Shown: in pieces, positions 5,515 through 17,908 of the stretch
Layout: each line of letters begins with the position of its first letter
Numbering within the stretch: the stretch's first letter is position 1
Origin: Verrucomicrobiota bacterium
Lineage (GTDB): Bacteria; Verrucomicrobiota; Verrucomicrobiia; Limisphaerales; CANJSG01
NCBI GenBank assembly: GCA_947476875.1
Contig: CANJSG010000019.1
Coordinates: 1-32,472, forward strand
Reading direction: 5' to 3'
Length of the DNA stretch: 32,472 nucleotides
Made by a program: the position numbers and the translations under genes
Notes under the pieces: generated by a model
Databases searched by the model: none
The model's input: only the letters and a program-made list of their open reading frames with translations
What the model was told of the DNA's origin: nothing

Positions 5515-6645
5515 TCAACCGCAAACGCGGCGATAGAGGGCCTCGTAGAGCGGCACAATCGCCCCCGCGGTGAATTTCAGCCGGGCGGATTGCCGGGCGA
5601 ATTGCCCCATCGCGGCCCGCCGCGTCGGGTTCGTGATCAGGCTCTGGACGGCGAGAGCGAGGGCTCCAGGGTCGCCGATGGGCGCCAACAACCCGGTGAT
5701 ACCGTCGTCAATCACCTCCGGGATGCCGCCGACGGAGGTGGCGACACTTGGACAACCGAAAGCCATGGCTTCAAGAATACTTAGGCAGAAGCTTTCGGTG
5801 TCGGAAGTGATGAGTCCCAAGTCGGCGGCCTGGAGGTAGTCTTCGATGTCGGTCACCTTCTCCCGCACAACCACTCTGTCCGCCAATCCCAGTCGCCTCA
5901 CTTCATCGACGAAAGGGGCAAAGCTTCCGCCCGCGAGGACCAGCAGCTTGAACGAATTCGTCGGACGAATGAGCGCCGCCGTTGCGAGGAGCAGGTCGAT
6001 CCGTTTCAGCGGCCGCAGATTCGACGAATGAACGATCAGGACCTCACCTTCCTTCACGCCGAGCTCGGCCCGCACCTCGTCCCGCATGCGCAGCGCCGGC
6101 CGGGGTTCATAGAAATTGTGGATGACGTCGATCGGGCACCCGGTCCCAAGCACCCGCTGCGTCTCGCCCTTCAACCAGGCGGAGACTGTGGTCACCGCAT
6201 CCGAGCAGGCCAGCGCGTGGGTGATCGCCGGCCCGTATCCGGCGTCGCGGCCGAGCAGCGTGGTGTCGGTTCCATGCAGTGTCGTCACGACGCGCGGCCG
6301 CTGGTCGGACGGCAACATCGACCGCGCCAGGATCGCGGCCGTCGCGTGCGGCACCGCGTAGTGGACATGCAGGATATCGAGGCCGCAGTCGCGGCTGACC
6401 TCGGCCATCTTGACCGACAAGGGCAACGTGTAGTCGGGATACTTGAAGAGGTCGTAGTCGTTGATCAGGACCGGGTGGAAGTGGAGACGGGGCGCATCCG
6501 GCGGCAGGCGAAAAGGCCGCTCGTAGCTGATGAAATGCACCTCGTGGCCGCGTCGCGCCAGATCCACGCCAAGCGCGGTCGCCAGCACCCCGCTCCCTCC
6601 CACGGTCGGGTAGCAGGTGATGCCGATCTTGAGAGCCTTGCCCAT
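5515..6645 (-). CDS. bshA: N-acetyl-alpha-D-glucosaminyl L-malate synthase-like glycosyltransferase (GT4, BshA type)
   Basis: MGKALKIGITCYPTVGGSGVLATALGVDLARRGHEVHFISYERPFRL... is typical of BshA; the C-terminal ESFCLSILEAMAFGCPSVATSVGGIPEVI motif is GT4. Start trimmed from 6681 to 6645. Confidence 0.88.
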   Translation of the reverse strand: MGKALKIGITCYPTVGGSGVLATALGVDLARRGHEVHFISYERPFRLPPDAPRLHFHPVLINDYDLFKYPDYTLPLSVKMAEVSRDCGLDILHVHYAVPHATAAILARSMLPSDQRPRVVTTLHGTDTTLLGRDAGYGPAITHALACSDAVTTVSAWLKGETQRVLGTGCPIDVIHNFYEPRPALRMRDEVRAELGVKEGEVLIVHSSNLRPLKRIDLLLATAALIRPTNSFKLLVLAGGSFAPFVDEVRRLGLADRVVVREKVTDIEDYLQAADLGLITSDTESFCLSILEAMAFGCPSVATSVGGIPEVIDDGITGLLAPIGDPGALALAVQSLITNPTRRAAMGQFARQSARLKFTAGAIVPLYEALYRRVCG

Positions 6646-6646
6646 G

Positions 6647-7384
6647 TCAAAAACGACGCGCCCCGCGACCCAACTGCGCAAGCGAACCGATCAACGGCGG
6701 GTCATTCGGGAAAAGCGCGATGGCATGGCCTACCCCTGCCCTGAGACCGTTCGCGCGCGCGCGCGTCAGCTGCAGTTCGGAATAATTCCTCGTCACCATC
6801 TGGGATGCGTGCGCTTCCATCGCGGCCGTCCACGTCGCGATGATCTCGGGCGCGGATACGTCGACCAAGAAGGGAGAGATGTCGGACGGTTCGGCCTCCG
6901 GCGTCACCGCGTAGAACAAGAGCTGCCCGATCGCGTGCGGCGCGAGCTCCCGCAACTCGGCCAAGCCGCCGAAGCGCGCCAGCCGCGATGCGTCGCGGAC
7001 GAGCTTCCCCAAACGCCAATGGTCCGGGTGCTGGTTCTCGACGAGGGTGGGCGCGAGCACGATGCCCGGCTTCACCCGGCGAAGGATTCGGGCCAGCTTG
7101 ATCGCGTGCCCGGCCTTCACTTCCAGGCGGGCATCGCCGTCCAGCTCGATGAACTCGATCGACGCTCCCAATCCCTCAGCAGCCTTCTGAGCCTCGGCGA
7201 CGCGTTGCTCCGGGGTGCCGTTGGAGCCCGCTTCGCCCCGGGAACAAACGACCAGATGGGCCTTGCGGCCGAGGCTGGTTTCCTTCGCGACGATTCCGCC
7301 ACAGCCGAACTCGATGTCATCGGGGTGCGCGCCAAAGACCAGCAATGGCTCGGCGTCAGGCTGGGATGTCGGTGTAGGCTTCAT
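6647..7384 (-). CDS. bshB1: PIG-L/LmbE family deacetylase, BshB1 type
   Basis: MKPTPTSQPDAEPLLVFGAHPDDIEFGCGGIVAKETSLGRKAHLVVCSRGEAGSNGTPEQR... with AHPDD metal-binding motif and ENQHPDHW; immediately upstream of bshA (1-nt gap). Confidence 0.88.
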   Translation of the reverse strand: MKPTPTSQPDAEPLLVFGAHPDDIEFGCGGIVAKETSLGRKAHLVVCSRGEAGSNGTPEQRVAEAQKAAEGLGASIEFIELDGDARLEVKAGHAIKLARILRRVKPGIVLAPTLVENQHPDHWRLGKLVRDASRLARFGGLAELRELAPHAIGQLLFYAVTPEAEPSDISPFLVDVSAPEIIATWTAAMEAHASQMVTRNYSELQLTRARANGLRAGVGHAIALFPNDPPLIGSLAQLGRGARRF

Positions 7385-8132
7385 CGGAGCGGTCGATGGC
7401 GTCGCGGTTGATGTAGGTGATCTCGGGCGCGTCTTCCCGGCGCAGATAGGCCTGTTCGCCGGCGCCCGCAATGTAGTGGGTGCAATGCAGCACGGACTGC
7501 ATCCAGCGCAACCGGGTGTCGCGAGTCGGACTGGTCTGCGCCTTGGTAAACTCCATCGCAGGCAGCGTCAAAAATTGGTCTCCCCCTTTGTGGACTTTCA
7601 GCACTCCGTCGAGGAATCGCGCCCGCACGATTTCGTTCTCATACGGGGCGTCCACGAAGAACTCCGGGACATCGCACGCCGCATTGCGGAACCCGGGATC
7701 ACCGGACCGCGCCACGCGGATCCCGTCGAGCAGCCCCATGCGGCGATACATCTCGAGGCAGAATTCGCCGACGGTCGCGGAAGCCGTCTCGCGAAAGGCC
7801 GCGACCCAGCGGGGATCGACGTAGGCGGGAAGCTGGAGCGACGTCTTCGCGTGCCAGTCGGCGCGGACGCGTTTGAGATACAGCGGGGAGAACTTGCGCT
7901 GGATCTGGTTGTCGAAGGCGAAGTTCAGCTCGATGGCTTCGCCGGTCTTGCGGTGCAGCAGCGTCGTCCGCGTCTCGCGCGGATCGTGGTCGCTGTCGTG
8001 GTAGAAAAAGACGATCTCCCCGCCGATCTCGGACTGGAGCCGGCGGGCCGTGATGATCTTGGCGTAGAGGAAACGGCGCGGAAAAAAACCGCAGGGCTGC
8101 TGGCCAAAACAGATCACGGGAGAGGCGCTCAT
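7356..8132 (-). CDS. Compact BshC-like protein (putative cysteine-adding enzyme), about 258 aa
   Basis: BshC-like blocks in the expected order: ICFGQQPCGFFPRRFLYAKIITA, IVFFYHDSDHDPRETRTTL, ARSGDPGFRNAA, HYIAGAGEQAYLRRED. Shorter than the roughly 540-aa canonical BshC. Start trimmed to MSASPVICFGQQ. Confidence 0.7.
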   Translation of the reverse strand: MSASPVICFGQQPCGFFPRRFLYAKIITARRLQSEIGGEIVFFYHDSDHDPRETRTTLLHRKTGEAIELNFAFDNQIQRKFSPLYLKRVRADWHAKTSLQLPAYVDPRWVAAFRETASATVGEFCLEMYRRMGLLDGIRVARSGDPGFRNAACDVPEFFVDAPYENEIVRARFLDGVLKVHKGGDQFLTLPAMEFTKAQTSPTRDTRLRWMQSVLHCTHYIAGAGEQAYLRREDAPEITYINRDAIDRSDEAYTDIPA

Positions 8133-9835
8133 TCGGCGGACGCCTTCGCAGGAGTTTTGAAGAAAGCCTGCAGCGCGAGACTCAGGACCATGCACGAGGC
8201 GCAACCAATCAGGTTATACCAGAGATACGGGATCGAGAGGGTCATGTAGAGCACCACCACCAGCGCCTGCGCGGCGATCGCCGCCCAAAACACCGATGAT
8301 CCGCCTACCTTCCGCAGGAAAAAGGCGACCAGGAAAATCCCCAGGACGACGCCATAGAACAGGGAGCCGATGATGTTGATGGCTTCGATGAGATTCTCGG
8401 AGAACCCGGCGAACAACGCGAAGACGATGGCAACGACTCCCCACATGGCCGTGAACCATTTCGCGGCCCGGACGTTTCGCGCCTCGTCCGGCACCGCAAG
8501 AGGCCGCAACTGGCGCCACAGGTCGATGGTCGTCGTGGTGCCGAGGGCATTCAGCTCGCCGGCCTTCGAACCGAGGGCCGCCGCGATCATCACGGCAATC
8601 AGCAACCCGATGACCCCGTGTGGCAGTTGCGCGAGGATGAAGCCGATGAAGACGTAGTCGGAGTCCTTGGTCTTCGCCAGCGGGTTGGCCGTGGTCAGCG
8701 CCGCCTTGGCCTCCTTGCGGACGACATCCGTGGCGGCATTGGCGGCGACCATCTCAGCGCGGGCGGCAGGTTCGGCCGCGTTTTCGCCACGGGCGCGGAC
8801 GTCCAGCCAGGTGCGGATCTTCTCCTGCTTCACGGCGTGGAGCACCGCGTGTCTTTGCTCGATGTCGCGGAAAGAGGCCCCGTCCGGTCCGGCCGCATAG
8901 CGCGCCCATTCCACCCGGTTGTAGAACACCGGCGCCGGCTGGAACTGGTAGAACACGAACACGAGCGCACCGAGCAGCAGGATGAAGAACTGCATCGGGA
9001 TCTTCAGCAGCGCATTGAACATCAGGCCAAGCCGGCCTTCGCGGAGGGACGCCCCGCCGATGTAGCGCTGCACCTGGGACTGGTCGGTGCCGAAATACGA
9101 CAGCGAGAGGAACAGGCCGCCAAACAGGCCGGTCCAGAGCGTGTAGCGCTTGTCGGGGTCCAACGACACATCGACTGCCTGGAGCTTGCCCAGCGCACCG
9201 GCGACATGGGCCGCACCACCAAAGCCGAGGCCGGCGGGCAAGCGCATCAGGAGAATCACGAACGCCGTCACCATCCCGCCGAAGATGACGCCCATCTGCC
9301 ATTTTTGCGTGAGGCTCACGGCCGCACTGCCGCCGGTCACAGTGTAGATGATGACCAGCAATCCGGTGCCGATGATCGTGAGGTCGAGCCGCCAACCGAG
9401 CACCGTCGCGAGGATGATCGCGGGCGCGTAGATGGTGACGCCGGCAGCCAGCCCGCGTTGGAGAAGGAAAAGGCCGGCGCCGAGAAGGCGCGTCTTCCCG
9501 TCGAATCGCTGGCCGAGGAACTCGTAGGCGGTGTAGACGCCGAGCTTCCGGTAGATCGGCAGGAACACGGCGCAGACGATGATGAGCGCCAGCGGTAGTC
9601 CGAAATAATTCTGCACAAACCCGATGCCGCTCTCGAAGCCCTGGCCCGGGATGGAGAGGAACGTGATCGCGCTCGCCTGCGTGGCCATCACGGAGATGCC
9701 GATGGTGCCCCAACGCGTGGTCTTGCTGCCCTTGAGATAAGTGTCGAGATGGTCCGTGTGGCGCGTGTGCCAGGCGCCGTAGGCGGCGATCCCCACCATC
9801 GTCACGAGCAGCACGATCCAGTCGAGGTGGTTCAT
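8129..9835 (-). CDS. Sodium:solute symporter family protein
   Basis: 568 aa, many TM helices, MNHLDWIVLLVTMVGIAAYGAWHTRHTDHLDTYLKGSKTTRWGTIGISVMATQASAITFLSIPGQGFESGIGFVQNYFG; SSSF-type pattern. Confidence 0.9.
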   Translation of the reverse strand: MNHLDWIVLLVTMVGIAAYGAWHTRHTDHLDTYLKGSKTTRWGTIGISVMATQASAITFLSIPGQGFESGIGFVQNYFGLPLALIIVCAVFLPIYRKLGVYTAYEFLGQRFDGKTRLLGAGLFLLQRGLAAGVTIYAPAIILATVLGWRLDLTIIGTGLLVIIYTVTGGSAAVSLTQKWQMGVIFGGMVTAFVILLMRLPAGLGFGGAAHVAGALGKLQAVDVSLDPDKRYTLWTGLFGGLFLSLSYFGTDQSQVQRYIGGASLREGRLGLMFNALLKIPMQFFILLLGALVFVFYQFQPAPVFYNRVEWARYAAGPDGASFRDIEQRHAVLHAVKQEKIRTWLDVRARGENAAEPAARAEMVAANAATDVVRKEAKAALTTANPLAKTKDSDYVFIGFILAQLPHGVIGLLIAVMIAAALGSKAGELNALGTTTTIDLWRQLRPLAVPDEARNVRAAKWFTAMWGVVAIVFALFAGFSENLIEAINIIGSLFYGVVLGIFLVAFFLRKVGGSSVFWAAIAAQALVVVLYMTLSIPYLWYNLIGCASCMVLSLALQAFFKTPAKASAE

Positions 9836-9981
9836 GCGAAGAAGCGCGAGAACAGCGCCAGCAGGACGACGGTCACCACGAAAACCGCAAACACGAACGC
9901 ATACACCCCGCGCCAGGTGCGGAAGCCGGGCACTCCGGTCGATCCGTCATCGCTGGATGGATCGGGCGGCGAGGGCTTCAT
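9832..9981 (-). CDS. 49-aa single-TM protein, possible symporter small subunit
   Basis: My translation: MKPSPPDPSSDDGSTGVPGFRTWRGVYAFVFAVFVVTVVLLALFSRFFA*. Overlaps both neighbours by ATGA (9978-9981 and 9832-9835). Below the apparent size cutoff of the supplied ORF track. Confidence 0.75.
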   Translation of the reverse strand: MKPSPPDPSSDDGSTGVPGFRTWRGVYAFVFAVFVVTVVLLALFSRFFA

Positions 9982-12476
9982 TTTCCGAGCGAGACCAGGT
10001 TGGCGAACAAGCGATACGCTCCGGGATTGCCGGCCGGCAGCTGCCGGAAAAACGCGATTCCGGTGTAGATGTAGTTCCCCTTGCCGTGCTTCGCGATCAG
10101 CAGGCTGCTTTTCAACGGCTGCTCTCCCTTGTCGTTCATCGAGAGGATCGCCACGTAGCGTTCTTGATCCCAGCTGCTCGGGAAATACGCGCCGCGCTCC
10201 TGCACCCAGCCTGTGAAGTCGGCCTGCGTGATCTTGTTCGGCGTTGTCAAAGCCGCGTGATCGGGCGCGAGGAACGTCACGGGCGCATCCTCTTCGGTCA
10301 CACGCAAAGCCGGCGCCGGACCCTGGATGGAAAGGCTATAGGGACCGAGTTGCGGGGTGTTCAGGCCATTGGGGCGGTTGTATTGGGCGATGACGTTTCC
10401 GCCGCCCTCCACGAAGGCGAGCAGGCCGGGGAAGTTGGCCGCGAGGTCGGTGCGTTCGTTGAACGCGCGAACACCGATCACGACGGCATCCAGGCCACGC
10501 AGCTTGTCGGCATTGAGATCGGCCCCGGTGAGGGTGGTGACCTTGTAGCCGAGCTGTTCCAGTGCCTGCGCGGTGTCGTCGCCCGCGCCTGGCAGGTAAC
10601 CGACCGCCTTGCCCTTCGCGGCAAACTCGACCGCCACGGCCCGGACGCGCGCGGGCGGTTGGAGAATCTGAAGCGGGATGTGGTCGTAGCGGATCTCGAC
10701 GCGCTGATTGCTGAAACGCGCGCCGCCGATGTCGGCCACGGCGAGGAAACTGCCCGACGCCGCTTGCACGGGCGCCGTGGCCGAGAAGACCAGACGAGCC
10801 TTGTCTCCCGGATTGCCGAGTTTGAACGGTTGGCTGGCCGGCGAGACGCTCCAGCCTGTCGGCGCCTCGATGTGCACGACTCCGATCGAATTGCCCCGCG
10901 CGGCCGTGACTTCGACCTCAATCGGCTTCTTCGCCCCGGGTGTGAAAAGCACGACACCCGACCCGAAACGCAGCGCGACGGGCGAGGTCACAATCAACGT
11001 GCGCGGCAGTCTTCCAGTCGCGGACTTGGCGACTGGTTCATCGGTCAAGACGAGCCGTTGTCCTCCGACGTCGAACGAGTATTCGACGGTGAAGACGGGC
11101 GGATTATCGGGTAGGCCAACCAGCTTCGGATCCGTCACGCGAAACATGCCCGGGCCGGCCTCTTCGCGAAGCCAATAAGGCTGCGACACCGGAAGACCTG
11201 CGGGCACGTCGATCATGATGTCGGCCGTCGGACCGGAGGCGTTGCTCCGATCAAGCGGCACATTGCCACCGGGAAACTTCACATCGGCCGACAGCCAACG
11301 GACCTGGGACTTCGCGGACAACGAAACGGAGACGGTGAGTTTCAGTCTGTCGCCGGGAACTACTTCAGCCTGCCGCGCGGTCGTCTCGACGGTAAGACCG
11401 AGACAGCCGGCGAGGATTCGATCCAACTGGCCGCGCTTGTCGTCCACCACCGGGTCGGAGGGCAACGCGGCGAGCTTGGAGCGGATCGCGAGGAGCGCGG
11501 GCACGCTGGCGGAAGGGTCCTCGTCCTTGAATTCGGCGAGGGCGTTGGTCGTGAGTCGTCCAATCTCCGCACCACCGGGAACACGGGCCCAAGTGAGATC
11601 GATGCCGTCCATGATGTCGTCCTTGGCGGGTTCTCCGCCGAGCAGGCCGAATGTTTCTTGGCGCGCTCCGGCACCTCCGCTGGGTCCGCGTCCGCCGCCG
11701 CCACCGCCCGGGCCGAACTGGGTCTTATGCTGCGCGCTGGTGCGGGAGGCGATCGTCTGGACCGCGTCGCCCGTCACCGGGTCGCTGCCGCCGGCCGCGA
11801 TCGAAAGGCTGGTTCCTCCGTTTTGCAGGATGCGTTTCGGCTGCCACGGCTTGAGACCTTCCGCGATTTGTTCGGGATACGACTTGGGATCACCTGCGAT
11901 CTTGAAGGCTTCCACTGCCAGGAGCGCCGAGGCGTTGTGATGGCCGTGGTTCCCCTTCTGGGCCTGAGGAGAAAAACGCGTGACGATGACATCCGGCCGG
12001 AAAGTGCGGATGACCCGCACGACGTCGCCCAGCACCTGGTCGTGGTCCCAGACGGCCAGCGCCTCGGCCATGCTCTTCGAGTAGCCAAAGTCCAGCGCCC
12101 GGGTGAAGAACTGCCGCGCGCCATCGAAACGCCGGCCGGCGAGAAGTTCATGGGTGCGCGCGAGCCCGAGTTTTTCGCCGAACTCGCCGCCGATCTCGTT
12201 CTGGCCACCGTCGCCACGAGTGATCGAGAGATAGCCGGTGCGGTAGTTGCGGACGCGGGAAAGGTAGGCGAGAAGCAGGCGATTCTCGTCGTCCGGATGG
12301 GCGGCAACGTGGAGGACAGTCGCGTAGATACCGAAGCCGCGGAGGTCTTCCTTGATTGCCGCAGCCGGGGGAGGAGCGGACTCGGCGGCGAACGACATCG
12401 ACAGGACCACCGCCCCGAGAGACGCATGGAGCGCCGCCCGGCGGAACATCCGGAAAATGGTAGGGTGCGAGGTCAT
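9978..12476 (-). CDS. Large secreted PIG-L family deacetylase with C-terminal GATase1-like domain
   Basis: 832 aa with signal peptide; AAHPDDENRLLLAYLSR, TRGDGGQNEIG, NHGHHNASALL; C-terminal KGKAVGYLPGAGDDTAQALEQLGYKVTTLTGADLNADKLRGLDAVVIGVRAFNER. Confidence 0.85.
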   Translation of the reverse strand: MTSHPTIFRMFRRAALHASLGAVVLSMSFAAESAPPPAAAIKEDLRGFGIYATVLHVAAHPDDENRLLLAYLSRVRNYRTGYLSITRGDGGQNEIGGEFGEKLGLARTHELLAGRRFDGARQFFTRALDFGYSKSMAEALAVWDHDQVLGDVVRVIRTFRPDVIVTRFSPQAQKGNHGHHNASALLAVEAFKIAGDPKSYPEQIAEGLKPWQPKRILQNGGTSLSIAAGGSDPVTGDAVQTIASRTSAQHKTQFGPGGGGGGRGPSGGAGARQETFGLLGGEPAKDDIMDGIDLTWARVPGGAEIGRLTTNALAEFKDEDPSASVPALLAIRSKLAALPSDPVVDDKRGQLDRILAGCLGLTVETTARQAEVVPGDRLKLTVSVSLSAKSQVRWLSADVKFPGGNVPLDRSNASGPTADIMIDVPAGLPVSQPYWLREEAGPGMFRVTDPKLVGLPDNPPVFTVEYSFDVGGQRLVLTDEPVAKSATGRLPRTLIVTSPVALRFGSGVVLFTPGAKKPIEVEVTAARGNSIGVVHIEAPTGWSVSPASQPFKLGNPGDKARLVFSATAPVQAASGSFLAVADIGGARFSNQRVEIRYDHIPLQILQPPARVRAVAVEFAAKGKAVGYLPGAGDDTAQALEQLGYKVTTLTGADLNADKLRGLDAVVIGVRAFNERTDLAANFPGLLAFVEGGGNVIAQYNRPNGLNTPQLGPYSLSIQGPAPALRVTEEDAPVTFLAPDHAALTTPNKITQADFTGWVQERGAYFPSSWDQERYVAILSMNDKGEQPLKSSLLIAKHGKGNYIYTGIAFFRQLPAGNPGAYRLFANLVSLGK

Positions 12477-13359: not shown

Positions 13360-14715
13360 TCAAACACCCGCCAACCGAACATCGGCATCTCCAAAACGCG
13401 GGAGCTTCACGCCCATCCGGTCCATCAGGGAGAGATACAGGCTGCAGACCTTGCGGTTCTCGTCGCCCTTGCCGACGTAGCTGAGGACGCGGCCAGTCTC
13501 CAACGTTCCGCCCAAGCCGCCGACGGTGAGCATCGGAAGGCGCGTGCTGTCGTGGCGGTTGCCGGACCACATGTTGGAAAGGAACATCAGGCAGGAGTTG
13601 TCGAGCACGGTGCCTTCGCCCTCGGGCATGGCGTCGAGCTTGGTCGCGAGGTAGGCGACCTGGCTGACGTAGTATCGGGCAATGCGCTCGAAATCATCGG
13701 AGAGATCGTCGTGGGATGCGGAATGGTGCGCCTTGCGGACGTCGAGGAAGGGGTAGAACAGGCCCGAGAGATCGCGGCAAAGCAGCAGCGAAACGACGCG
13801 GGTCTTGTCGGTCTGGAAGGCCATCGCGGTGATGTCGCACATCAACCGCATGTGCTCACGGATATCCTCGGGCAGGCCGTTATCCGGACGTTTCATAAAA
13901 GCGACGGGCATGTTCTTGCCCTGGGCATTCTTCTCGGCTTTGGCCTGATCGCCCCGCATCCGGTCTATGCGCTTCTCCACTTCACGGACGCTCGTCAGGT
14001 ATTCGTCGAGCTTGGCCTTGTCGTTGCCGCTGATCTTCCGGCCAAGGCTGGAGGCGTCTTCCTTCACCCGGTCGAGGATGCTCTGCGTCCGGCGGGTGCC
14101 GCGGTTCTCGAAGAGGCTGTCGAAGGCGAGGGACGGATAAACCTCCATCGGCACCGGTGAATCCGCGCTCTGCCACGAGATGTGGGAGCTGTAGGCCATG
14201 GAGAAGTTGCTCTCGTGGTAGCCGGTGATGGGCTGTTCACAACCAAGGACCATGCTCGGCTGGATCGAATCCTGCCCGATGCTGTTGGCCAGCACCTGGT
14301 CCATGCTGATGCCGCCCTTGAGCACGGCGCCTTTCATCAGCGGCATGCCGGAGAGGAGGTTGCCGGTCTGCCCGGGATGGATGCCGACGCCGACGGCCGA
14401 CTTGTTGAAGAGGCCGTCGATGAAGTTCATCTTGGTCTTCAACCCTTCCATCGGCTGGAGACTCTTGCTGAGTTCCATGCTCTTGCCGGAGCCCTTGGCC
14501 GACCAATGGTTGCCGTTGACGCCATTGCCCCAGAAGAGCGCGGCGAACCGCTTCGGCATCGCGGCCGGAGCGCCGGCCTTCAAAGGCTCGTCGCCGAACG
14601 CCGGAATGGATTCGAGCCAGGGCAAAGCCATCGTGACACCGACGCCCCGGAGAAACGTCCGACGTGACAGTCGGAAGCGGCGGGCGGCTGGGGAATTCTC
14701 TTTTGGATCGCGCAT
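13360..14715 (-). CDS. DUF1552 domain protein, Tat-exported (copy 1)
   Basis: FRLSRRTFLRGVGVTMALPWLESIPAF twin-Arg signal; MPKRFAALFWGNGVNGNHW...; paralogue of 20013-21404 and 26534-27886. Confidence 0.88.
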   Translation of the reverse strand: MRDPKENSPAARRFRLSRRTFLRGVGVTMALPWLESIPAFGDEPLKAGAPAAMPKRFAALFWGNGVNGNHWSAKGSGKSMELSKSLQPMEGLKTKMNFIDGLFNKSAVGVGIHPGQTGNLLSGMPLMKGAVLKGGISMDQVLANSIGQDSIQPSMVLGCEQPITGYHESNFSMAYSSHISWQSADSPVPMEVYPSLAFDSLFENRGTRRTQSILDRVKEDASSLGRKISGNDKAKLDEYLTSVREVEKRIDRMRGDQAKAEKNAQGKNMPVAFMKRPDNGLPEDIREHMRLMCDITAMAFQTDKTRVVSLLLCRDLSGLFYPFLDVRKAHHSASHDDLSDDFERIARYYVSQVAYLATKLDAMPEGEGTVLDNSCLMFLSNMWSGNRHDSTRLPMLTVGGLGGTLETGRVLSYVGKGDENRKVCSLYLSLMDRMGVKLPRFGDADVRLAGV

Positions 14716-14719
14716 GGCT

Positions 14720-17700
14720 TTACTTGGCTGCGAGGTCTTCGGGACCCCGTTTGTTCAGGAACTGCGGACTGGTGACGATGCTTTCCACGAGACTGTCAAA
14801 CCTGTGCCCATTGGCCCTCAACTTGGCCCGCATGTCACGCACCGTAATGTCGTCGGACAGGATCAGGCTCCGGCCCAATCCGTAGGCCAGCATCTTGCGG
14901 CAAAGGTTGTCGAGGAAGTCGTCCTGGCGATGGGCCTTGATATAGGCGCGGAGCCCGGTGAGGCCGGAGCCTTCGCTGCCATCGGAGAAGACCGCATGGG
15001 TGTCGACGGGTTTCCCGCCAAGATCCTTCGTCCGCAGTTCGCCGACGGGCCCAAAACCCTCGAACACGAGCCCGAGCGAATCAAACCGTTGATGGCACCC
15101 GGCGCAACTGACGTCAGACCGGTGTTTCGCCAGCGTTTCGCGAAGGGTGAGTTCGCCAAGCTTGGCCTCGTCAGCCGGAAGTTCAGGAACAGAGGCGGGC
15201 GGCGGCGGGATGCGTTCGCCCAGGACACGGCGGGCCACCCAGTAGCCTCGTTTGACAGGACTGGTCCGCAGGCCGGGAGAATTGGCGGTCAGGAAAGCCG
15301 ACATGGAAAGAAGTCCACCACGGCCGACGCTGCCGATGTTCTCGACGCGCACCCAGTCGTTCGAAGCGATGGCTGGAATCGTCAGGCCGTAGTGCCTGGC
15401 CAAGGCCGGATTGACGAAGGTGTAGTCGCAATCGAGAAACTCCAAAACCGGGCGGTTTTCACGCACGGCATTGAGGATGAAGCGGACCGGTTCCTCGAAC
15501 ATCGACTGCCGCAGCTTGTCGTTGAAGTTCGGAAACCTTTGACGGTCGACGGCGTTGTGTTCCTCAAAGCGCCGGAAGTCGAGCCAGTGCCCGCCAAACT
15601 CGACCGCGAAACCCCGGACGCGTTCGTCTTTCAACATCCTCCGGGCCTGCGCGACGATGACTTCCGGCCGGTGCAAGTCACCCGCAGCCGCCCGCGCTAG
15701 AAGCTCTTCGTCCGGCGCGCTCGACCACAGGAAGTAGCTCAGCCGACTGGCCAGCGAGTAGTCGGACAACGGCAATGCACCGTTGGGTTGGACAGTCTTT
15801 CCCTTGGCAGCGCGGGAACCAGTTTTCGGGGAAGCGGGCGTTTGACTGCCGGACGCTTCCACGAGATCGACCCGGTAGCAGAAGCTCGGCGACATCAGCA
15901 CGCTCGCGATGCAGTCGCGGATCGCGTCGTCGTGCGTCAGCCCGTCCTTTTCACGGGATATTCGATAGAATCCAAGCAGGCCGTCGCGTTCAACGGCGGT
16001 CAGCGGCCGGCGAAACGCCTTCTGGGCGAACTGGACGAGCGCTTCGACGTGCTTCGGTTCCGCGTCGCGCTCCATCTTCTCGATGCGGGCGATTGCAACA
16101 GGCACCCGCTCGAAGTGTTCCTTGATGGCGGCGAGGGTGGCTTCGCTGGCGCCGACACGGACGGCTTTGGCGTAGTAGAGCTCCGCAAGCTTCTTCACCT
16201 TGGGCTCGGTCGTGCAGTCCTTGTCCTCGGCCCGCGCGAAGTCGAACTCGGCGTCGCTCAGGAATCGCGAGTCGGTGCGCTCGAAATACACCGTGCTCTG
16301 GTGCATCCGCTGCGGCACGGAGGCGATGACGTTGAACTCGTCCCACAAGTGGTCGAGTTCGCGCCGCCCCTTCTCGTCGAGGACCATGTCAAACAACGGA
16401 CCGTCGTCGCGGAAGTAGCCGGTCTGGTTGTGCAGGCCGGCGCTGAGGAGCCGCCCGACATTGCCATTGGCCTTCTCCTCCTCCGGGTCGATGAACGACC
16501 TCGCCCGTTCCTTCACGTAGAAGGCGTCGGGGAAAACCTCGGCGAATCGTGCGAAGGCCGCCTCGAATTTGGCCCGTTGCGCGGGGTCGGAAGGAACTTT
16601 CAGATTCGCGTCGGCCTCGCGTGTCTTGGCCTTCACCTTTCTCCGGTTGTAACTCGCGGCCTTGGCCCCTGCCTGGACGTTCGTCACGACCAGGCCGTCG
16701 ATCTGGAGCAATGCCGGGTCGAACTTCCGCCGGTTGGCGGCCCACTGCCGGTCCTTCCACAGGACCAACGCCTGTGCGCTGGGGTTCATCTCAGGCCCGT
16801 TCAGGTTGGGGACCTCCGGCCTGATCTTCTCGCGGAGCGTCACGACAAAATCTCTCATTGCCTCGCAGCTCTTCCGCACCTCCGCCGCCGGCTCGCCCCG
16901 CTTCTGGGCGGGCAACTCGCGGAACATCCCCTGCAACTTCGCGATCGGCCCGACCTCTTCCTTCGCGTTCAACGACTCCCAGACGGTCGCGAGATACTTC
17001 GCGCTGACTTTCGACTCGATGGCGATGTCGGCCAGCGTCGCCCGCGATTTGCCCAGGGCCGCCCGGTTCTTGAAGCGCCAAGCGGCGGCGAAGTAATCCG
17101 CGAAATCCGTGGGTTGCCGCAGGTAGAAATCAACGATCCGCAGGATGCCGTATTTGTCGCGGTCGGTGTGGACCATCATGGGGTGGCTCGCGAAGGCGAT
17201 GCCGTCCAGGTTCAACACCGCGTGCTGGCTCACTTCGCGCGCGGCCTCGAGATACTTCTTGAGCAGTGCCGGCGACATGGTGAGCGACTCGCCCGAGTTG
17301 TCGAAGCCATCCTGGTTCGCCGGATCGACGGGAAACTCTTTGGTCGGTTTCAGGTCAACGCCGGTCAGGTCGCGGATGGTGCGATCGTATTCGGCGTTGC
17401 TCAGGCGCCGCGCAAGAACCGGCCCCGGATCGCCGGCATTCTTCTCGGCTTCGTGCCGGCGCATTTCCTGGATCCAGGCTACGACCGCCTGGCTCTGGGT
17501 AGAAGTCGGGTGCTGTTTTGCCTTCTTCGGCGGCATGTCGCCGATCTGGAGTTTCTCCAGGACCATTTCCCAATGAGGGTGATCGCGGACGACCGCCTTC
17601 AGGTTGTCGTAGGGACTAAGGTCAAAGTCCGCCTTCGGTTTCTCCGCGCCGTGGCAATCAAGGCAGTAAGTGCCGATGAATGGCCGAACGGTGACCTCGA

Positions 17701-17806
17701 ACCGCTTCCCCAGCTCCAACGACACTTTGTCGAGCGACGCGGCCGGGGCGGCAATGGCGCCAAGCAGCAGGATCGCAATCGATGAGATGGAGCGAAGAAA
17801 TGACAT
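14720..17806 (-). CDS. DUF1592/DUF1588/DUF1587/DUF1595/DUF1585 (PSCyt-like) c-type cytochrome protein (copy 1)
   Basis: N-terminal TYCLDCHG and C-terminal DVSCAGCHQRFDSLGLVFEGFGP heme motifs; PPPPASVPELP; signal peptide MSFLRSISSIAILLLGAIAAPAAS. Confidence 0.87.
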   Translation of the reverse strand: MSFLRSISSIAILLLGAIAAPAASLDKVSLELGKRFEVTVRPFIGTYCLDCHGAEKPKADFDLSPYDNLKAVVRDHPHWEMVLEKLQIGDMPPKKAKQHPTSTQSQAVVAWIQEMRRHEAEKNAGDPGPVLARRLSNAEYDRTIRDLTGVDLKPTKEFPVDPANQDGFDNSGESLTMSPALLKKYLEAAREVSQHAVLNLDGIAFASHPMMVHTDRDKYGILRIVDFYLRQPTDFADYFAAAWRFKNRAALGKSRATLADIAIESKVSAKYLATVWESLNAKEEVGPIAKLQGMFRELPAQKRGEPAAEVRKSCEAMRDFVVTLREKIRPEVPNLNGPEMNPSAQALVLWKDRQWAANRRKFDPALLQIDGLVVTNVQAGAKAASYNRRKVKAKTREADANLKVPSDPAQRAKFEAAFARFAEVFPDAFYVKERARSFIDPEEEKANGNVGRLLSAGLHNQTGYFRDDGPLFDMVLDEKGRRELDHLWDEFNVIASVPQRMHQSTVYFERTDSRFLSDAEFDFARAEDKDCTTEPKVKKLAELYYAKAVRVGASEATLAAIKEHFERVPVAIARIEKMERDAEPKHVEALVQFAQKAFRRPLTAVERDGLLGFYRISREKDGLTHDDAIRDCIASVLMSPSFCYRVDLVEASGSQTPASPKTGSRAAKGKTVQPNGALPLSDYSLASRLSYFLWSSAPDEELLARAAAGDLHRPEVIVAQARRMLKDERVRGFAVEFGGHWLDFRRFEEHNAVDRQRFPNFNDKLRQSMFEEPVRFILNAVRENRPVLEFLDCDYTFVNPALARHYGLTIPAIASNDWVRVENIGSVGRGGLLSMSAFLTANSPGLRTSPVKRGYWVARRVLGERIPPPPASVPELPADEAKLGELTLRETLAKHRSDVSCAGCHQRFDSLGLVFEGFGPVGELRTKDLGGKPVDTHAVFSDGSEGSGLTGLRAYIKAHRQDDFLDNLCRKMLAYGLGRSLILSDDITVRDMRAKLRANGHRFDSLVESIVTSPQFLNKRGPEDLAAK

Positions 17807-17908
17807 TTGGGTGGCTGACCGGGCGAGTCTCACTTCATCCACGAGCTCACGCAACCCGCCGAATGGGGTGAATCGACGATCCCGGTATCCATGCTATTCG
17901 ATGACGCT

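Follow-up and report, generated by a model that had tools for sequence, protein, structure and literature searches.

Genes at the locus and their conservation

The window analysed here is a stretch of 32,472 nucleotides from a Verrucomicrobiota contig (CANJSG010000019.1). Seven genes lie together on its minus strand and are read in the order DUF2911, PIG-L, 49-aa ORF, SSS symporter, BshC-like, BshB and BshA. By ascending coordinate they are as follows:

5515..6645, minus strand: BshA, glycosyltransferase (GlcNAc and malate), 376 aa, TIGR03999
6647..7384, minus strand: BshB-like LmbE deacetylase, 245 aa, PIG-L 81 bits
7356..8132, minus strand: compact BshC, putative cysteine ligase, 258 aa, fold match to 4WBD
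8129..9835, minus strand: SSS-family Na+:solute symporter, 568 aa, PF00474 and TIGR00813
9832..9981, minus strand: small single-TM protein, likely symporter accessory subunit, 49 aa, conserved position
9978..12476, minus strand: secreted PIG-L/LmbE metallohydrolase with a long C-terminal region, 832 aa, PF02585
12630..13199, minus strand: DUF2911 protein with a signal-peptide-like N-terminus, 189 aa, PF11138 at 124 bits

The first-pass annotation had described a cluster of six genes. All six are present in the order it gave, and its calls of bshA, bshB, a BshC-like gene, a symporter and a secreted PIG-L protein are supported by the analyses below, but it had passed over the seventh gene, DUF2911. 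Its junctions are also found in the sequence. When the minus strand is read directly, an ATGA is common to PIG-L and the 49-aa ORF (9981-9978), to that ORF and the symporter (9835-9832), and to the symporter and the BshC-like gene (8132-8129). The BshC-like gene starts with the ATG at 8132, which gives 258 aa, and overlaps by 29 bp with BshB, whose ATG is at 7384, while a gap of 1 nt separates the BshB stop (6647) from the ATG of BshA (6645, giving 376 aa).

With the BshC-like protein as query, a search of species genomes confirmed 267 relatives, the best 80 of which show 63-81% identity and come, judging by their titles, almost exclusively from Verrucomicrobiota MAGs. The order PIG-L, small ORF, symporter, BshC-like, BshB, BshA is kept in nearly all of these 80 related loci, as are many of the junctions: the symporter/BshC-like ATGA was found in 46 of 73 related loci, the exact 29-bp BshC-like/BshB overlap in 48 of 77, and a BshB/BshA gap of 0-2 nt in about 41 of 74. 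Since they recur across related loci, the junctions are not due to chance. Clustering of neighboring ORFs from 92 loci added only DUF2911, whose gene precedes that of PIG-L in about 75 of them. A small ORF with one TM segment precedes the symporter gene in 111 of 112 loci, and its stop overlaps the symporter start by 4 nt in 101 of 111; we therefore rejected the possibility that the 49-aa ORF is spurious. The cluster is probably expressed as an operon with translational coupling between its genes.

BshA scores 384.6 bits against TIGR03999, above the cut-off of 273.7, and its closest solved structures are BshA from B. anthracis (E 4e-88) and B. subtilis (E 9e-82). For BshB the closest model is BshB1 (TIGR04001), with a score of 131 bits, below the cut-off of 182.5; its HPDD and HPDH motifs are essentially invariant across 72 loci. 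In 9 of 31 further loci from the class sample BshB is missing beside BshA. Because of the score under the BshB1 cut-off and the loci with no adjacent BshB, the product of the pathway could differ from bacillithiol (BSH).

A compact protein with the core fold of BshC

At 258 aa, the BshC-like protein has half the length of BshC (about 540 aa). Neither Pfam nor NCBIfam gave a match to it at E<1, and PF10079, the family of canonical BshC, has no match in the genome that encodes it. Direct comparison of compact and canonical BshC by sequence gave an hhalign probability of 5.5% (E 0.007) and weak hmmsearch scores, and the profile of sequence alignment A1 found no relevant match among PDB chains. 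We therefore dropped the argument for BshC homology from sequence alone, as both hhalign and hmmsearch are at noise level.

The AF2 model of the compact protein (pLDDT 86.6, pTM 0.86) has the BshC core fold. Foldseek finds a single PDB match with E<=1e-3, 4WBD (B. subtilis BshC, E 1.3e-9), and VIA-align superposes 240 of the 258 residues on 4WBD with Z 19.9, rmsd 2.7 and 17% identity, the runner-up being class I LysRS with Z 14.3. In a review, the structure of BshC is described as comprising a Rossmann core, connecting peptides and a coiled-coil through which it dimerises (PMC4360819). The compact model lacks the N-terminal segment of 4WBD and, having no long C-terminal helices within its 258 aa, the C-terminal coiled-coil dimerisation domain. 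The GQQ and DHDxxE motifs are conserved in sequence alignments A1 and A2 and fall in register between compact and canonical BshC in a profile alignment; on visual inspection, 'IAGAGEQAY' in the compact family corresponds to 'IAGPGE..Y', which canonical BshC has close to where the core ends. With sequence similarity at noise level, homology is argued from one predicted structure together with the motifs and the genomic context. Compact and canonical proteins are alike in core fold, in the GQQ and DHDxxE motifs and in being encoded with bshA and bshB, and differ in that the compact gene is clustered with a secreted module. The "BshC-like" call of the first-pass annotation holds; it had overlooked that this is a half-length variant unrecognised by current models.

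Compact BshC in place of canonical BshC

Among 194 genomes of the phylum, BshA is found above its cut-off in 15. Thirteen of these coincide exactly with the set encoding the compact protein, and the other two, G046 and G126, with the set matching PF10079; no genome among the 194 encodes both compact and canonical BshC, and none encodes either of them in the absence of BshA. BshA is present in 44 of 335 genomes of the class sample, 13 of which are shared with the compact-BshC set of the phylum sample, and the compact gene was found in the BshA regions of all 31 others (one region, L184, lies at a contig edge with its remainder on L220, and another, L192, is split). The fold and the replacement pattern together make a good case for the compact protein taking the place of BshC, and it probably ligates cysteine to GlcN-malate.

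In the two Verrucomicrobiota with canonical BshC, the genes BshC-BshB-BshA form a single block as they do in the window cluster, whereas this block has a SAM methyltransferase ORF in front of it and no adjacent symporter, PIG-L or DUF2911. The module genes are encoded elsewhere in G126. G046, a 2-Mb genome, has the canonical bsh genes but lacks the module altogether, an observation that counts against the module explanation.

PIG-L, symporter and DUF2911 proteins

The 832-aa PIG-L protein scores 53 bits against PF02585 (gathering score 28.2), and its best NCBIfam match is Mca, with 36.2 bits far under the cut-off of 277. Its zinc motif HPDD...H is present in 72 of 72 loci and is the one seen in active LmbE enzymes. 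Enzymes of the LmbE superfamily cleave N-acyl-glucosamines, and one of them, Bca, is presumed to permit the recycling of GlcN-malate (PMC4101496). The protein encoded in the window resembles the Mca/Bca amidases in its PIG-L domain, in the HXDD and H zinc motif and in its link to a GlcN-thiol, and is unlike them in its long extra region and in having a signal-peptide-like stretch at its N-terminus. Judged by eye from their N-terminal sequences, both PIG-L and DUF2911 are probably secreted.

The symporter matches PF00474 with 120 bits (cut-off 22.8) and TIGR00813 with 197.8 bits (cut-off 184). Its nearest solved relatives are 5nv9 (a putative sodium:solute symporter), SMVT, SMCT1 and NIS, followed by SGLT; these carry vitamins, monocarboxylates, iodide or sugars and do not name its substrate. 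Some SSS symporters have small accessory subunits, for example of the DUF4212 type. The 49-aa protein is similar to these in being a one-TM protein encoded directly upstream of the symporter and translationally coupled to it, and different in that it has no family match and that the pair is confined here to genomes with bsh genes. The DUF2911 protein gave a confident model, whose best VIA Z is 4.3 and which has no Foldseek match with E<=1e-3. We read no function from this fold because it has no clear match in the PDB, which does not in itself show that the fold is new.

Association of the module with bsh genes

Orthologues of PIG-L (all matches E<1e-155) and of the symporter (all E<1e-165) are shared by one set of 14 genomes among the 194 of the phylum sample, namely the 13 with compact BshC and G126, and PF11138 (DUF2911) marks the same 14. 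They are thus encoded by 14 of 15 bshA+ genomes and by 0 of 179 bshA- genomes, which refutes, within the phylum, the idea that they co-occur with bshA at random. The class sample gave one identical set of 44 out of 335 genomes for PF11138 and TIGR03999; this coincidence would have a chance of about 4e-56 if genomes were independent, which they are not, so the figure is not a p-value. The profiles are not independent because positive genomes group within families and linked genes may drop out jointly from incomplete genomes. Variation within genera and persistence without linkage are better evidence. Among the genomes listed for two genera, BshA and DUF2911 vary together: three have both and three have neither in genus g108, and three have both and one has neither in genus g116.

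Physical linkage is not a condition of this association. In G126 the DUF2911, symporter, small-ORF and PIG-L genes lie together on one contig (C31) and the bsh genes on another (C117), and in G423 and G531 the module is likewise kept together, apart from the bsh genes; these split arrangements show where the boundaries of the module lie. The functional link of PIG-L and the symporter to the bsh genes, proposed in the first-pass annotation, is therefore supported, as their orthologues and DUF2911 track bshA even where unlinked. The controls B. subtilis, Thermus and Deinobacterium possess BshA and no DUF2911, indicating that the module is an addition and not part of every BSH system.

Discussion

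The results are best explained by a bacillithiol locus with a compact BshC and a functionally linked extracytoplasmic module, a reading that we consider likely, a judgement that does not extend to a salvage step. The Verrucomicrobiota locus would then make BSH or a close variant, with a compact BshC performing the last step, the addition of cysteine to GlcN-malate; this enzyme would retain the class-I-synthetase-like Rossmann core and have lost the dimerising coiled-coil. The extracytoplasmic module (DUF2911, secreted PIG-L hydrolase, small membrane protein and Na+ symporter) would depend on the BSH pathway.

What the module does can be proposed more tentatively. The secreted PIG-L may cut exported or extracellular BSH-derived conjugates at the glucosamine amide, the symporter and its small subunit may import the GlcN-malate so freed, and compact BshC may put cysteine back on it. 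Such a salvage cycle, a more specific form of the salvage suggested in the first-pass annotation, fits the gene order, since the symporter gene adjoins that of BshC. It is the mechanism we place first, although we would not favor it over its alternatives taken together; import of a precursor instead of salvage is nearly as likely. We hold with similarly low confidence the complete arrangement, which would combine a minimal cysteine ligase with a periplasmic arm of its own: the secreted PIG-L would cleave exported BSH conjugates, DUF2911 would help and a two-subunit Na+ symporter would bring GlcN-malate back into the cytoplasm.

The module might instead scavenge carbohydrate, with PIG-L deacetylating an external GlcNAc glycoside and the symporter taking up an aminosugar or an organic acid to supply BshA. 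The relationship of the symporter to sugar and monocarboxylate transporters is consistent with this, as is the presence of PIG-L homologues on plasmids of Aminobacter, Rhizobium and others, all of them distant (about 28% identity). General scavenging, however, does not predict that orthologues of PIG-L, the symporter and DUF2911 are missing from every bshA- genome sampled, as they are; moreover, the symporter gene directly precedes that of BshC, not BshA. We regard this explanation as somewhat improbable.

It is less probable still that the compact protein derives from BshC and attaches a partner that is not cysteine, or builds another low-molecular-weight thiol upon GlcN-malate. BshC activity in vitro had not been demonstrated as of a 2015 review (PMC4360819), so the fold alone cannot fix the substrate, and the low identity to BshC, the loss of the coiled-coil, the missing family match and the BshB score under the BshB1 cut-off would all agree with a changed ligation. 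The one-for-one replacement of canonical BshC in the bshA+ genomes of the phylum and the motifs common to both forms argue against it. Finally, it is quite unlikely that the genes co-occur with no shared function, because they were inherited or transferred as a block and genomes are incomplete: linkage in most genomes, the clustering of positives in families and the presence of the cluster in G195, apparently from another phylum (suggesting block transfer or misbinning), speak for it, but the association is kept where DUF2911 or the whole module is unlinked (G126, G423, G444, G477, G497, G531, G561), G444 is a single contig, and BshA and DUF2911 come and go in step each time among the members of genera g108 and g116.

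A 2018 survey placed Verrucomicrobia among the lineages for which a low-molecular-weight thiol was neither documented nor predicted (PMC6282198), and we found no report of a BSH pathway in Verrucomicrobiota in the open-access papers searched. A 2025 survey of the BSH pathway, the main text of which does not mention Verrucomicrobiota, required BshC matches of similar length with >80% coverage and >25% identity (PMC12719100), criteria that cannot detect the half-length compact BshC. Our results suggest that many Verrucomicrobiota make bacillithiol with a last enzyme of half the usual size, and that four adjacent genes, which encode secreted and membrane proteins, are part of this pathway. The question of thiols in Verrucomicrobiota becomes directly testable through this locus, the 258-aa BshC represents a poorly understood enzyme trimmed to its core, and the DUF2911 family, mentioned in one of the open-access papers searched, gains a strong functional lead.

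Gene content of the cluster and of related loci

The genes that lie immediately upstream of the window cluster are on the same strand and seemingly form a unit apart from it:

13360-17854 of the window, minus strand: HXXSHH (DUF1552) and DUF1592/1588/1585 proteins of planctomycete-cytochrome type

Two DUF2911 paralogues, a short one of ~185 aa and a long one of ~290 aa, are encoded at the related loci L183, L191, L193, L194, L195 and L213, where they are often adjacent to each other and upstream of PIG-L. No BshB was found in the interval between compact BshC, the putative cysteine ligase, and BshA at L194, L195, L196, L197, L199, L201, L204, L205 and L209. In both Verrucomicrobiota with canonical BshC, a SAM-methyltransferase-like ORF, which could be a candidate NmbA-type BSH methyltransferase, immediately precedes canonical bshC:

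L115, 6799-7557: SAM-methyltransferase-like ORF
L116, 7982-8779: SAM-methyltransferase-like ORF

Evolutionary history of the cluster

A complete cluster is found on a 509-kb contig (C40, locus L048) of genome G195, titled Abditibacteriaceae, the only one of 101 genomes sampled from its phylum in which DUF2911 was found. Either block transfer or misbinning would account for the presence of the cluster in this genome.

The history of the symporter (8129-9835 in the window, and its relatives in related loci) differs from that of the bsh genes. Pairwise-distance correlations are 0.45-0.49 for the symporter and 0.64-0.74 for the other cluster genes among themselves, and a high-identity symporter type requires 13 changes on a bsh tree versus 3 on the symporter's own tree (FastTree). 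The symporter seems to have been exchanged between clusters, for example at L036, where identity is 89% for the symporter and 69% for the BshC-like protein.
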